A stretch of DNA of 64,000 nucleotides from Tardiphaga robiniae (GTDB lineage: Bacteria > Pseudomonadota > Alphaproteobacteria > Rhizobiales > Xanthobacteraceae), in NCBI RefSeq assembly GCF_001618955.1, contig NZ_LVYV01000001.1, positions 186,001 to 250,000 on the forward strand. Reading direction: 5' to 3'. A model generated the notes under the pieces. It ran no database searches and was not told the origin of the DNA. It worked only from the letters and a program-made list of their open reading frames with translations. Made by a program: the position numbers and the translations under genes. Positions 29,634 to 35,100 of this stretch are shown piece by piece; within the stretch, counting starts at the first letter, position 1, and every line of letters begins with the position of its first letter.

Positions 29634-30656
29634 CTACAGCTCCAGCAGCCCGGCGTCGCCGTCCTGATCGGCAAAAGCCAGCAGCGTACCCTTGGCATTC
29701 CAGGCCAGCGCGCTGACGGGCTGCCCTTTGTTGGCGCGTACCAGAATTTCCGCGCCATCGGTCATGCGGACCATCAGGATGGTGCCGTCACTGTAACCGG
29801 CGGCGAGGATGTCCTGCTTGGGATGACAGGCCACCATGGTGACCTTGGCCTTGAGCGGCGCCAGCATGGCCGGCTCCTTGCCCATCGGACCATCCTTGCT
29901 GGCAAACGGCCAGACGATGACCGTATCGGCGCCCGAGGTCGCGAGACCCTTGCCACCGGCGCTCCAGGAAATCGAGCGCACGCGTGCCGGATAACCGGTC
30001 ATGCGCATGTGCTTGCCGTCGACGAGACGCCAGCCATGCAGCGCGGGCTCATGCATCGCGGTGACCAGAAACTTGTTGTCCGGGCTGAAAGTCACGCCGA
30101 GATGCGAGCCCGCCCATTCCAGCACTTCCGCATTGCCGGCCATGTTGGGAAACCATAGCGTCACGCCGTTGTAATGCGCGATCGCGAGCCGGAGCCCCTT
30201 GGGCGCAAATGCCAGACCGCCAACGGTCGATGGCACCTCGAAGGATTTCACCTCGCCCTTCGGCGCCTGCACGAAGGCGGTCTTGCCCGCCGACCACGCC
30301 ACGGCGCCGTCGGGATGCAAAGCTACACTGTCGATCCAACGCCGCTTGGCGTCGGTCGCGAAGGTCGAGACCGCACCCTCACGATCGAGCACGACGACCT
30401 TGCCGTCATCACAGCCCATGACGATGCGCTTGCCGTCGGAGGTCGAGCACAGGATGCCGCCGAACGCGACCTCGACCGGCGACATCGCGCCTGCCGGATC
30501 GACCAGGGTGACTTTCTCTTCGGCGCCGACAAAGGCTGCCTTGTCGCCGAGAAAATGCACGGCCGTAACGGCCGCACCAATTGCCACGGGCACGACACGG
30601 TCGGTGACCGAGACGATGGATTCCTGCTCCTGCAGCGGGTTGAAATCGGACATCAT
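29634..30656 (-). CDS. Cytoplasmic WD40-repeat protein coupled to CobW
   Basis: A 340-residue beta-propeller protein with repeated blades of the pattern aromatic/hydrophobic-S-P/A-D/G-x-x-L...V-x-x-W/V, for example VTFSPDNKFLVTAMHEPALHGW and ISWSAGGKGLATSGADTVIVW. No signal peptide or membrane segment is seen, so it should be cytoplasmic. Its ATG (30656, or the next one at 30653) shares a base with the CobW stop codon (TGATG), showing translational coupling. AztD, a periplasmic zinc chaperone, is also a propeller but has a signal peptide; this protein is not simply AztD. As last gene of a Zur-controlled operon, it is likely to work with CobW in zinc allocation (inference). Confidence 0.82.
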   Translation of the reverse strand: MMSDFNPLQEQESIVSVTDRVVPVAIGAAVTAVHFLGDKAAFVGAEEKVTLVDPAGAMSPVEVAFGGILCSTSDGKRIVMGCDDGKVVVLDREGAVSTFATDAKRRWIDSVALHPDGAVAWSAGKTAFVQAPKGEVKSFEVPSTVGGLAFAPKGLRLAIAHYNGVTLWFPNMAGNAEVLEWAGSHLGVTFSPDNKFLVTAMHEPALHGWRLVDGKHMRMTGYPARVRSISWSAGGKGLATSGADTVIVWPFASKDGPMGKEPAMLAPLKAKVTMVACHPKQDILAAGYSDGTILMVRMTDGAEILVRANKGQPVSALAWNAKGTLLAFADQDGDAGLLEL

Positions 30657-31699
30657 CAGGCGGGGATGCAGCGTTCGAAGCCGTCGCGGATCAGCTGCTC
30701 GGGCAGATCGCGACCGATAAAGACAAGACGGCTTTCGCGCTTCTCGCCGTCCTTCCACGGCCGCTGATGATCGCCTTCCAGCATCATGTGCACGCCCTGA
30801 AACACATAGCGGTCATCGTCGCCGGAGAAGGACAGGATGCCCTTGGAGCGCAGGATCTTGCCGCCCTCCTTGGCCATCAGGTCCTGCAGCCACGGCATGA
30901 AGGTCGATGCATCGAGCGCCTTGTCGGTGCGCAGCGACATCGAATGCATGTCTTCATCGTGATAGTGCTTCAGCCCGCCATGACCGTGATCATGGTGGTG
31001 ATGATGGCCGTGATCGTGGTCATGATGATCGTGACCGTCGTCCGCGTTGAGGAATTCCGGTTCGATCTCCAGAATACGGTCGAGATCGAAGGCGCCACGC
31101 TCCAGCACGTCGGACAGTTTCACCTGCGCGCGTTCGGTCTTGTGCAGCTTGGCGTAGGGGTTGATGGCGCGGATGCGTGCCTCGACTTCGGCGAGCTCGG
31201 CCTTCGACACGAGATCGATCTTGTTCAGCACGATGACGTCGGCAAAGGCGATCTGGTTCTTGGCTTCCGGCGCATCCTTGAGGCGGTCGCTCAGCCATTT
31301 GGCATCGGCCACGGTCACGACGGCATCGAGCCGCGCATGGGCCTGCACGTCCTCGTCGACGAAGAAGGTCTGCGCCACCGGGGCTGGATCGGCGAGGCCC
31401 GTGGTCTCGACGATGATCGCGTCGAACTTGCCCTTGCGCTTCATCAGGCCATCGAGAATGCGCACGAGATCGCCGCGCACGGTGCAGCAGACGCAGCCGT
31501 TGTTCATCTCGAACACTTCTTCGTCCGCGCCGATGATGAGATCGTTGTCGATGCCGATCTCGCCGAATTCGTTGACGATCACAGCGTATTTCTTGCCGTG
31601 ATTTTCCGACAGGATGCGGTTCAGCAGCGTGGTCTTGCCGGCGCCGAGATAGCCGGTCAGCACGGTCACGGGAATTTTGTTGGCAGTCGCTTCAGACAT
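30656..31699 (-). CDS. CobW/COG0523 GTPase with His-rich loop (zinc metallochaperone type)
   Basis: A 347-residue G3E GTPase starting at ATG 31699, which has GGAGTG just upstream; a GTG two codons earlier is possible. Walker A is GYLGAGKTT (residues about 17-25), the metal-binding C-x-C-C is Cys69-Val-Cys71-Cys72, Walker B ends in E-T-T-G-L-A-D-P, and NKID gives base recognition. A His/Asp-rich loop (about 222-250) precedes the CobW C-terminal domain. COG0523 proteins in zinc-limitation operons (ZigA, ZNG1 type) transfer zinc to client enzymes. It lies 56 bases after the zinc-binding protein gene and overlaps the WD40 gene. Confidence 0.92.
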   Translation of the reverse strand: MSEATANKIPVTVLTGYLGAGKTTLLNRILSENHGKKYAVIVNEFGEIGIDNDLIIGADEEVFEMNNGCVCCTVRGDLVRILDGLMKRKGKFDAIIVETTGLADPAPVAQTFFVDEDVQAHARLDAVVTVADAKWLSDRLKDAPEAKNQIAFADVIVLNKIDLVSKAELAEVEARIRAINPYAKLHKTERAQVKLSDVLERGAFDLDRILEIEPEFLNADDGHDHHDHDHGHHHHHDHGHGGLKHYHDEDMHSMSLRTDKALDASTFMPWLQDLMAKEGGKILRSKGILSFSGDDDRYVFQGVHMMLEGDHQRPWKDGEKRESRLVFIGRDLPEQLIRDGFERCIPA

Positions 31700-31755
31700 G
31701 ATCACTCCGGCGGGGTCTTTTCAGGGGCAGCGCCGGCAGCAGGGGTGCCCCTGCG

Positions 31756-32637
31756 CTAACTGGTCAGCGCGCTCGTCAGCGCCTTTATATTGTGCCTGAC
31801 CATATCAATGTAAGTGGGTGCATCGCCGTTTTCGGCCGTCAGACTGTCCGAAAACAGCGTTCCGCCGATTTTTGCCCCGGTCTCGGCGGCGATCCGGCGC
31901 ATCAGCCGTGGATCGGCGATGTTTTCCAGAAAAACAGCCGGAATTTTCGAGATCTTGAGCTGGGTGATGATGACCGCGATATCTTTCGCGCTGGGCTCGG
32001 AATCCGTCGAAACGCCCTGCGGCGCAATAAATTCGATGCCATAGGCTGCCGCGAAATAGCCGAAGGCATCATGGGTCGAGATCACCTTGCGGTGCGCCGC
32101 GGGAATGGTGGCGATAGCCGCCTTCACATCACTGTCGAGGGCCGTCAGCTTTGCGAGATAGGCCTCGGCGTTCGCCTTGTAGATGTCGGCACCTGCCGGA
32201 TCGGCCTTGGCCAGCGCATCGCGAATGTTTGCGACGTAGACCTTGGCATTGCCCACCGACTGCCAGGCATGGGGATCTTCATGGGAGTCGAGCTTGCGCG
32301 GTGCGATGCCCTGGGTTGCGGTGACGATGACAGCCTTGCCGCCGGATGATTTCACCAGCCGCGGCAGCCAGCCTTCGAAGCCGAGGCCGTTGATCACCAC
32401 GAGCTTCGCATCGGCTATCTTTTTCGCGTCACGCGGCGTCGGTGTGTAGACATGCGCATCACCGTTCGGGCCGACCAGGGTCGTAACGGCGACCCGCTCG
32501 CCACCGACATTGCGCACGAGGTCACCCAGGATGGAGAAACTCGCGACGACGTCGATCCTGTCCTGTGCACGCGCCGGAAGGATCGCAGTGATCAGCGAAG
32601 TCACGGCGCAAAGGAGCAAAACGCAAGATTTCCGCAT
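31756..32637 (-). CDS. znuA: Zinc ABC transporter periplasmic binding protein
   Basis: A 293-residue cluster A-I metal-binding lipocone protein with signal peptide (ends ILPARAQ). Predicted ligands are His62 (GDAHVYTP), His123 (DPHAW), His189 (STHDAFGYF) and Asp264 (LFSDSL), the arrangement seen in zinc and manganese receptors. The long His-rich loop of E. coli ZnuA is absent; only a short D-S-H-E-D-P-H segment is present, closer to AztC/SitA-like forms. Zinc is favoured over manganese because of the Zur palindrome and CobW gene. A GTG at 32646 is an alternative start. It follows the permease gene with 11 bases between. Confidence 0.88.
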   Translation of the reverse strand: MRKSCVLLLCAVTSLITAILPARAQDRIDVVASFSILGDLVRNVGGERVAVTTLVGPNGDAHVYTPTPRDAKKIADAKLVVINGLGFEGWLPRLVKSSGGKAVIVTATQGIAPRKLDSHEDPHAWQSVGNAKVYVANIRDALAKADPAGADIYKANAEAYLAKLTALDSDVKAAIATIPAAHRKVISTHDAFGYFAAAYGIEFIAPQGVSTDSEPSAKDIAVIITQLKISKIPAVFLENIADPRLMRRIAAETGAKIGGTLFSDSLTAENGDAPTYIDMVRHNIKALTSALTS

Positions 32638-32648
32638 GACTGACACAC

Positions 32649-33518
32649 CTACGCCTCAAGATGCCGGCCGGGGAACAACTGCCTCACCAAGCCACTGACA
32701 TTACCGAACAAAACCGAAAATACGTAGAGTACTGCGGCGACCAGAATGATCGCAGGGCCGGACGGCACCTTGGTCTGGAACGACAGCACCAGACCGAAGT
32801 AACCGGAGATCATCGCGCTCGCGACGGAGATCATCATCATCCCCGTGATATCGCGCGACCAGAAGCGCGCGATGCCCGCCGGCAGGATCATCAGGCCCAC
32901 CGCAAGCAGCGTGCCGAGCGCATGAAAGCCGTTGACGAGATTGACGACGACCAGCGCGAGAAATGCGAGATGCGCGGGCGCGCCGGCGCGCGAGACCGTG
33001 CGCAGAAACACCGGGTCGACGCATTCGATCACCAACGGGCGATAGATCACCGCCATCACCACCAGCGTGATGGTCGCGTTGAACGCGATCACCAGCAGCG
33101 TCTGATCGTCGAGCGCGAGGATATTGCCGAACAGCACATGTAGCAGATCGATATTGGTGCCGCGCATCGAGACGATGGTGACGCCCACCGCCAGCGAGAC
33201 GAGGTAGAATGCCGCGAGCGAGGCATCTTCCTTGATCACGGTGACGCGGGACACCAGACCCGCGAGCAGCGCGACGGAAAAGCCTGCAATCAGGCCGCCG
33301 AACGTCATCGCAAACAGATTGAGCCCGGAAAACAGGAAACCGATGGCGGCGCCCGGCAGGATCGCATGCGCCATGGCGTCGCCGACAAGACTCATCCGCC
33401 GCAACATCAGGAACACGCCGATGGGCGCGCCGCCGAGTGCCAGCGCGACCACGCCCGCGAGCGCACGACGCATGAACTCGAATTCGAGAAAGGGCGCGAT
33501 CAGCGCATCGTAAAGCAT
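32649..33518 (-). CDS. znuB: Zinc ABC transporter permease
   Basis: A 289-residue inner-membrane protein of the ABC-3 family with about eight membrane helices. Conserved segments include RRMSLVGDAMAHAILPGAAIGF (about residues 40-61), the family ATPase-contact region, and H-A-L-G-T-L-L-A-V-G-L-M-I-L-P-A near residue 205. It forms the channel for the ATPase encoded 5 bases upstream and the binding protein encoded downstream. Confidence 0.92.
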   Translation of the reverse strand: MLYDALIAPFLEFEFMRRALAGVVALALGGAPIGVFLMLRRMSLVGDAMAHAILPGAAIGFLFSGLNLFAMTFGGLIAGFSVALLAGLVSRVTVIKEDASLAAFYLVSLAVGVTIVSMRGTNIDLLHVLFGNILALDDQTLLVIAFNATITLVVMAVIYRPLVIECVDPVFLRTVSRAGAPAHLAFLALVVVNLVNGFHALGTLLAVGLMILPAGIARFWSRDITGMMMISVASAMISGYFGLVLSFQTKVPSGPAIILVAAVLYVFSVLFGNVSGLVRQLFPGRHLEA

Positions 33519-33523
33519 GTCGA

Positions 33524-34282
33524 TCAGGCCGCCCGCGAATGTGCGGGATCGACGACGCAGGTACCCGCGCCGTCATCGAAGGCTTCACACATGCGCCGCG
33601 CCTCCAGCAGGTTATCCGCCGTCAGCACCTGTTGGGTTGGTCCCCAGGCGACAGAGCCACGCGCCAGCAGCAGCGTCTCCGGGAAATGCGCGCGCACCAT
33701 CTCCATATCGTGCAGCGCCGCCAGCACCGTGCGCTTTTCGGCATGCCAGTGACGAACCAGCGCAATCAGATCGGCCGACGTCTTGGTATCGATCGCATTG
33801 AACGGCTCGTCGAGTACGATGACGCGCGCATCCTGCAGCAATACGCGCGCGAACAGCATGCGCTGCATCTGGCCGCCGGACAGCGTGCCGATATTGCGGT
33901 TCTCGAATCCGTTGAGGCCAACAGCGGCGAGTGCCTGTCCGATCTGTTCGCGCGCCTTCTTGCCAAGGCCGCCGAATATGCCGGTCGTGCGCCACAGGCC
34001 AGTACCGACGAAATCGAACACCGAGATAGGGAATGTGCGGTCGATATCGACGCTCTGCGGCAGATAGGCGATGTCGCGCGCCTTCAGGCCGCCAAGTGTG
34101 ATCGCGCCCGTCAGCGGCTTCAGGATGCCGACGATGCCGCGAAACAGTGTGGACTTGCCGGCGCCGTTCGGCCCGACCACCGCGAGCAAACTGCCAGCGG
34201 CGATCTCGCCATTGAGATGATGCACGGCTGGATGCCGGTCATAGCCCAGCGTGACGTTCTGGAAAGCGAGCTGTGCCGTCAT
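33524..34282 (-). CDS. znuC: Zinc ABC transporter ATP-binding protein
   Basis: A 252-residue ABC ATPase: Walker A GPNGAGKST (about 39-47), Q-loop in AYLPQSV, signature LSGGQMQR (about 138-145), Walker B VIVLDEP, and H-loop ALHD. It overlaps the stop of the His-rich mini-gene by four bases (ATGA), so it is the second gene of the operon. The C-terminal 30 residues are variable. It energises metal import through the ABC-3 permease. Confidence 0.92.
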   Translation of the reverse strand: MTAQLAFQNVTLGYDRHPAVHHLNGEIAAGSLLAVVGPNGAGKSTLFRGIVGILKPLTGAITLGGLKARDIAYLPQSVDIDRTFPISVFDFVGTGLWRTTGIFGGLGKKAREQIGQALAAVGLNGFENRNIGTLSGGQMQRMLFARVLLQDARVIVLDEPFNAIDTKTSADLIALVRHWHAEKRTVLAALHDMEMVRAHFPETLLLARGSVAWGPTQQVLTADNLLEARRMCEAFDDGAGTCVVDPAHSRAA

Positions 34283-34491
34283 GATGGCCTCATCGCCAGC
34301 AGAACCACCGCCCAGAGCGCTGCGGAAACCGCCAGCGCGGCCCCCAGCCGTGCCGGCAACGTCATGCGCAAGATCGACCAGGGTGCTGGCTGGGCCGGAT
34401 GCGGGCTTGCCGGGCCATGACTGTGCGTATGACCATGGCCGTGCGCGTGACCATGGGAGTGGTCATGACCGTGGGAATGGGAATGCGCCAT
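34279..34491 (-). CDS. His-rich membrane-anchored mini-protein, first gene of zinc operon
   Basis: A 70-residue protein. From ATG 34491, His occupies every odd position from residue 3 to residue 25 (12 His in 23 residues, alternating with Ser, Gly, Asp, Ala or Thr), then a Pro/Ala linker and one membrane helix (about 43-65, LGAALAVSAALWAVVLLAM). An upstream in-frame ATG at 34542 would run into the operator and is not favoured. The stop overlaps the ATPase start as ATGA. The sequence suggests a membrane-tethered zinc-binding tail that captures or buffers zinc beside the transporter. I know no characterised homologue of this exact form. Confidence 0.75.
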   Translation of the reverse strand: MAHSHSHGHDHSHGHAHGHGHTHSHGPASPHPAQPAPWSILRMTLPARLGAALAVSAALWAVVLLAMRPS

Positions 34492-34544: not shown

Positions 34545-34561
34545 ATGTTATATTATAACAT
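34545..34561. promoter_or_regulatory. Zur box of the zinc operon
   Basis: ATGTTATATTATAACAT is a perfect 17-base palindrome (8-1-8) located 54 bases before the first start codon of the zinc operon. It matches the core of the known Zur operator (ATGTTATA-N-TATAACAT). Its position, gene content and perfection make Zur control very likely; a zur gene is not in the window. Confidence 0.88.
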
Positions 34562-34580: not shown

Positions 34581-34955
34581 TCAGGCAAAGTGGCGAACCA
34601 GCGCCAGACCAGCAAAAAGCCCGGCAATCGACAGCACCACTGAGCCCAGCACATAGGCCAGGGCGAGGCCCAATTCGCCGCGCTCGTAGAGCACTGCCGT
34701 ATCCAGTGAGAAGGCCGAAAAGGTCGTGTAGCCGCCGAGAATGCCGGTCATCAGGAACAGGCGCCAGGGCTGCGAGGCCTCGCCCTTGAAGGCGAGATAG
34801 CCGGCAATCAGGCCCATCACGGTCGAGCCGGTGATGTTGATGAGGAAGGTGCCCCAGGGGAAAGCCGTGCCTAAGCCCCGCGCGCTGGCGACGTTGACGG
34901 CGTAGCGCAAGGTCGAGCCGAGCCCGCCGCCGACGAAAACCAGAATGTAATTCAT
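34581..34955 (-). CDS. crcB: Fluoride channel CrcB/Fluc
   Basis: A 124-residue four-helix membrane protein from ATG 34955 (MNYILVFVGGGLGSTLRY); an ATG five codons earlier is possible. Conserved features are the G-G-x-G-x-x-x-R-Y N terminus, G-T-F-x-x-N-x-x-G-S in helix 2, and the T-G-x-x-G-G-x-T-T-F-S-A-F-S motif lining the fluoride pore. Works as an antiparallel homodimer channel exporting F-. It reads toward the Zur box of the zinc operon, and ends 20 bases before it. No fluoride riboswitch was recognised upstream. Confidence 0.92.
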   Translation of the reverse strand: MNYILVFVGGGLGSTLRYAVNVASARGLGTAFPWGTFLINITGSTVMGLIAGYLAFKGEASQPWRLFLMTGILGGYTTFSAFSLDTAVLYERGELGLALAYVLGSVVLSIAGLFAGLALVRHFA

Positions 34956-35100
34956 CACCTGTCCCACCATGGCAAAGCTGAAGCTAACGCCAAATCCCGC
35001 TTCGGGTTTTTGCCGCAAGCCCTGGGGGACAGCAAGTCACGAAGAAGCACCCCAGTAAAAAGGCGGCAGCTTACGCCGCCGCCCTTGATATTCTCTGCCT

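Follow-up and report, generated by a model that had tools for sequence, protein, structure and literature searches.

An operon for a zinc importer in Tardiphaga robiniae opens with a gene for a 70-residue protein, which belongs to a widespread family, apparently not described before, of very small membrane proteins with a single helix, linked to AztA/ZniC-type ATPases. The gene lies in a 64,000-nucleotide stretch of DNA (assembly GCF_001618955.1, contig NZ_LVYV01000001.1, positions 186,001 to 250,000), hereafter the window, to which all coordinates below refer. As judged from aligned sequences, the conserved part of this microprotein is its last ~35 residues and not its histidine tail. We consider it fairly probable that the microprotein is a single-pass inner-membrane protein with a cytosolic N-terminus that serves as a dedicated partner of AztB/AztA (ZniB/ZniC), and to which a His tail was added in the lineage of the window. 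In the sections consulted of the papers describing them (PMC10797113, PMC12183173), the Klebsiella and rhizobial zinc importers of this branch are presented as consisting of three genes, and a conserved fourth gene heading the operon would change what to express, delete and purify for their study.

The microprotein gene and its operon

The microprotein gene, recognised by reading the ORF and by its conservation in relatives, occupies 34279..34491 on the minus strand and is translated from 34491 to 34279 (70 codons) as MAHSHSHGHDHSHGHAHGHGHTHSHGPASPHPAQPAPWSILRMTLPARLGAALAVSAALWAVVLLAMRPS. Its product comprises a His tail (residues 1-26, 34414..34491), a linker and a helix (residues 37-66, 34294..34383) carrying the family motif S-x-L-R...R-L...L-W. 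Histidine stands at residues 3, 5 and so on up to 25, amounting to 12 His codons within 23, with one more at residue 31. AlphaFold2, run on the single sequence, predicts one helix at residues 37-66 and an unstructured tail devoid of strand (mean pLDDT 72.5). Translation and prediction thus bear out the design described in the initial annotation, with His at every second position, a linker and one helix, but not the β strand with a single His face that it had proposed for the tail; the H-H spacing in the tails of near relatives, moreover, is not always 2 but can also be 4 or 1. We took the Met at 34491 as the start because the residues preceding it vary among relatives and because the frame of one relative (L011) has no earlier ATG; the alternative start further upstream would give 87 aa.

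The microprotein gene shares 4 nt with the next gene through the ATGA overlap initially annotated. This next gene encodes an AztA/ZniC-type ATPase (33524..34282, minus strand) and is followed on the same strand by genes for an AztB/ZniB-type permease (32649..33518; Pfam ABC-3) and an AztC/ZniA-type binding protein (31756..32646; Pfam ZnuA, 312 bits). AztA, AztB and AztC are the closest NCBIfam models, though each score is below its cut-off (215.8 for 220, 261.2 for 280 and 309.5 for 350 bits, respectively), and AztD has no match at E ≤ 1e-10 in the genome of the window, which places the locus outside AztABCD. The binding protein was said to lack the His-rich loop of E. coli ZnuA, and indeed only one His is present in the 32 residues before DPHAW. 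With a Zur box, the gene order ATPase-permease-binding protein and no His loop, the window corresponds to the ZniCBA type, under a definition worded here from the consulted parts of PMC10797113 and PMC12183173. A gene for a COG0523 (CobW-type) GTPase (30656..31705, minus strand; Pfam cobW and CobW_C) lies 50 nt downstream of the binding protein gene and is probably co-transcribed as part of the zinc operon. This GTPase has a His stretch of its own, HDHHDHDHGHHHHHDHGHGG.

Upstream of the microprotein gene, a scan for the Zur-type pattern ATGTTATA(A/T)TATAACAT found a perfect palindrome, ATGTTATANTATAACAT, at 34545..34561, which is the sole match in the window at ≤2 mismatches and had no counterpart in 100 shuffles. 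The microprotein gene is therefore the first one after the Zur box, as originally read. Zur-like boxes (≤1 mismatch) are found at 94 of 217 microprotein loci, and at none of 217 shuffled ones. The stretch that immediately precedes the Zur box, 34581-35018, appears by eye to encode, on the same strand, a CrcB-like small membrane protein.

Conservation of the microprotein beside AztA

Among 65 ATPase orthologues (≥55% identity, 101 genomes), a set picked by the ATPase alone, unlike the larger set presented below, 64 have a short ORF of the same layout directly upstream. The one orthologue without it is L072; L064, L067 and L070 were missed by the regular expression, and their ORFs are visible in the upstream sequence. 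A tail-less alignment of 51 microproteins, including that of the window, defines a 38-position core with a Ser, an Arg and a Trp invariant in 51/51. Searching 385 genomes of the class with the profile of this core gave matches in 117 at E ≤ 0.1; the best 30 of these 117 were examined and all lie directly beside AztA, 28 in genomes outside those used to make the profile and two inside. At ≥8 bits, the profile matches 233 of 336 upstream stretches, a set that includes duplicates and distant loci, but nothing on the antisense strand, none of 318 stretches further upstream and none of 84 distant transporter loci. We propose to delimit the family by this core motif, lying within a single helix encoded immediately before the ATPase gene, as found in the window.

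Among distinct AztABC/ZniCBA-type loci (AztB ≥44% identity), the microprotein is present in 218 of 242, which is not a random sample since L080-L109 were taken for their match to the microprotein profile and L362-L366 to seek absences. The 242 loci derive from 302 with an ATPase match, from which we dropped those with AztB <44% or absent, the sister loci L074, L076, L077 and L078, and duplicates (the sister locus L345 was kept); distant loci (L117-L189) had been excluded beforehand, and for the weakest ATPase matches flanks were fetched for part only. A microprotein was scored as present at ≥7 bits in the region from -330 to +40 relative to the ATPase start, itself inferred by alignment, and five microproteins were accepted by eye (L257, L264, L269, L278 and L289). 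Carriers occur in both alpha- and gammaproteobacteria and include Klebsiella, Enterobacter, Pseudomonas sp., Kushneria, Skermanella, Azospirillum, Mesorhizobium sp. and Neorhizobium. The conservation in relatives on which the initial annotation had staked its proposal is thus observed both in close orthologues and across the broader set.

Weighted conservation over the 218 microproteins is 0.99 for the Arg before the helix, 0.93 for the Trp and 0.81 for a second Trp; the Ser of the motif reaches 0.93 where it is aligned, i.e. in about two thirds of them. Conservation of one face of the helix is not significant over the same 218 (p 0.29). The pooled pN/pS is 0.36 for the microprotein core, compared to 0.24 for aztA (24 loci, 276 non-independent pairs), indicating that the microprotein is under purifying selection and behaves as a gene. 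In 177 of 217 loci its stop codon falls between 15 nt before and 16 nt past the inferred ATPase start; of the 217, 64 have a 4-nt overlap of the two genes and 22 a 1-nt overlap.

Twenty-four of the 242 loci have no microprotein, 21 of which group together on the tree while the others represent three single losses; AztABC can thus work without it. In 20 of these 24, a Zur-like box (≤2 mismatches) lies 31-80 nt from the ATPase start, so that the space for the microprotein is gone. When the microprotein is present, the median distance is 206 nt (94 boxes, ≤1 mismatch), although the two values differ in method, as the search stopped 60 nt before aztA in loci with a microprotein and had no such stop in those without. 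Of 62 loci with 3 Kbp of downstream sequence, 46 have only the microprotein, 12 only AztD, four neither and none both (Fisher 8e-10). At these loci AztD occurs only among the 21 clustered microprotein-less ones; in whole genomes, it is matched in 4 of 80, three of them without the microprotein and the fourth, which has it, by a weak partial match (33%). This pattern suggests that AztD replaced the microprotein in one clade. Note that a tree test leaves one independent pair only, so the exclusion, stemming from about one evolutionary event, is an association and not a proof of replacement.

Five sister loci (L074, L076, L077, L078 and L345) are AztABC-like, with ATPases at 38-42% identity, and lie behind cobalamin riboswitches (98-139 bits), a position from which these importers are presumably for cobalt. 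Four of the five have a small helix ORF that the profile of the zinc branch matches at 12-20 bits. The association of the core thus seems to be with the transporter branch and not with zinc.

Topology and role of the histidine tail

The 15 residues preceding the helix contain more Lys and Arg than those following it in 213 of the 218 microproteins, as many in four and fewer in one, although the comparison is lopsided as a mean of only 3.4 residues follow the helix. By the positive-inside rule, this bias points to a cytosolic tail, which would then be on the wrong side to stand in for a periplasmic loop. A His-rich tail (≥4 His in 12 residues) is found in 78 of the 218; the 140 others have none, and the tail cannot therefore be the core function. 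It is present in 60 of 73 microproteins whose AztA is ≥64% identical, compared to 18 of 145 others. The AztB tree requires at least 14 changes of the tail and four in the presence of the microprotein. Together with the variable spacings of near relatives, these repeated changes indicate that strict alternation is locally restricted and that bare helices have repeatedly acquired the tail; in other relatives, the tail contains runs such as HHHHHH. We regard the tail as an optional, probably cytosolic extension, which probably binds zinc.

In the reading that we favour, the microprotein gene would head a Zur-controlled operon, usually no more than about 15 bases from the ATPase gene and often overlapping it, and its helix, with an Arg at its cytosolic end followed further along by two Trp, would pack against the permease. 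By analogy with CydX, AcrZ or TorE and their partners, the packed helix may stabilise the permease or tune its cycle. The N-terminal His tail added in the window's lineage would be placed at the cytosolic mouth of the permease, where it could catch exiting zinc and either hand it over, the COG0523 GTPase of the neighbouring gene being one candidate recipient, or, once loaded, slow the transporter. As tailed, bare and absent versions exist in nature, the effect of the tail on the transporter is directly testable, and so is the possible swap of an inner-membrane helix for a periplasmic chaperone. A more far-reaching version, which we put forward tentatively, would make this branch of importers, for zinc and probably cobalt, one with a hidden fourth core part: a permease-binding helix of 33-45 residues, without which transport would be slow or unregulated, the cytosolic His tail added in some lineages acting as a sensor that slows import once loaded with zinc, and one clade having swapped the helix for the periplasmic AztD.

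The microprotein could instead act without touching the transporter, as a membrane-tethered cytosolic zinc buffer that supplies the GTPase or the whole cell. This is compatible with the cytosolic side of the tail indicated by charge and with the COG0523 gene that flanks 16 of 23 tailed loci; the gene also flanks 10 of 23 tail-less ones, however, a link too weak for us to retain a coupling between tail and GTPase. Since the microproteins without a His-rich tail retain both the helix and the position next to aztA, and since a mere anchor would have no need for near-invariant Arg and Trp, we judge such a free-standing buffer improbable.

It is less probable still that the product is of minor importance and that translation of the microprotein ORF opens or times that of aztA. 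Runs of His codons could make ribosomes stall, as in the his leader peptide, and the ORF in the window has 12 His codons; the 4-nt and 1-nt overlaps would also suit this reading. Yet selection preserves the protein sequence while synonymous sites vary, Arg and Trp are invariant in the 51 aligned cores, most members have no His-rich tail and the gap to aztA is variable, all of which speak against it.

The initial annotation had supposed that the mini-protein does the job of the ZnuA loop in trans, and had proposed comparing whether its presence tracks with the loss of that loop. With loop His counted automatically, tail and loop His do not covary over 147 loci (rho 0.10, p 0.21; -0.03 for 66 close relatives): 25 have both and 45 neither. 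Tracking thus fails for the His of the tail; for the presence of the microprotein there is a weak trend (Mann-Whitney p 0.06), as ≥3 loop His are found in 16 of the 21 loci that lack the microprotein compared to 62 of the 149 that have it, most of the 21 belonging to one clade. A periplasmic tail collecting zinc for the binding protein or the permease would suit the loop-less binding protein and very His-rich tail of the window as well as this weak trend, but the charge bias, the missing covariation and the single clade behind most of the trend make it very unlikely, and we abandoned the loop substitute in trans.

Relation to described systems and annotation

The ZniCBA systems of Klebsiella pneumoniae and Rhizobium leguminosarum, for which three genes are named in the consulted parts of their descriptions, resemble the window in gene order, control by zinc and a binding protein without His loop (PMC10797113, PMC12183173). 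The zniCBA locus of K. pneumoniae sits between mltB and pncC, and the Zur box of R. leguminosarum is 153 bp before zniC, according to the same sources, which leaves room for a microprotein gene in the latter. At the Klebsiella zniCBA locus, the microprotein is a bare 35-residue helix behind a Zur-like box (identified by eye); its gene overlaps zniC and, unlike that of the window, encodes no His tail. AztA, AztB and AztC of the AztABCD system of Paracoccus denitrificans (PMC5387054, PMC7463823) provide the best NCBIfam models for the transporter of the window. AztD is the periplasmic zinc chaperone of that system (PMC5387054), and AztD-bearing loci, e.g. those of Paracoccus versutus and P. alcaliphilus, differ from the window in that 12 of 12 with long flanks have no microprotein. 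The ZniCBA of Cupriavidus metallidurans shares the name but was set aside, being an efflux pump as described in PMC11647595.

CydX and AcrZ (PMC4325964, PMC7267776) and TorE/NapE (PMC6134056) are, like the microprotein, small proteins with one helix, each with one larger membrane partner; the microprotein differs from them in having no family model, an ABC importer as its would-be partner and an optional His tail. In COG0523, HypB and UreG (PMC2770081), His stretches are likewise optional on a conserved core, but this core is a GTPase, whereas that of the microprotein is one membrane helix.

Small membrane proteins such as CydX and AcrZ have Pfam/NCBIfam models. For the window microprotein and five relatives (four tail-less, one tailed), Pfam and NCBIfam gave no family match, although HMMER filters can miss very short proteins, and PHROGs gave no match to a known family for the microprotein. 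Pfam ZrgA (PF10986) was rejected for the window microprotein, with 13.5 bits against a gathering cut-off of 27.4 over residues 4-25 only, as were two PDB profile hits (E 2.4 and 4.8) that look like chance. No description of such a microprotein was found among the open-licence papers listed as matches, in line with the earlier remark that no protein of this form was known.

The microprotein gene is easily overlooked. The profile finds it in 7 of 16 plasmid regions, and in the five of these seven with gene tables it is listed as a hypothetical protein in two (Skermanella rosea and Paracoccaceae strain La 6) and unlisted in three, although these tables are incomplete and an unlisted gene may be annotated elsewhere. 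The microprotein of the zniCBA locus is listed as 'Uncharacterised protein' in K. aerogenes and unlisted in Enterobacter hormaechei, while the silence of the K. pneumoniae table is uninformative since zniC and zniA are also left out. Among the Klebsiella records, a 5.37-Mbp "plasmid" (L383, CP125156.1), in which zniC is matched in two pieces, looks like a chromosome, and plasmid pBio30 of K. pneumoniae (L347), typed as conjugative, harbors aztABCD distinct from the chromosomal zniCBA type.
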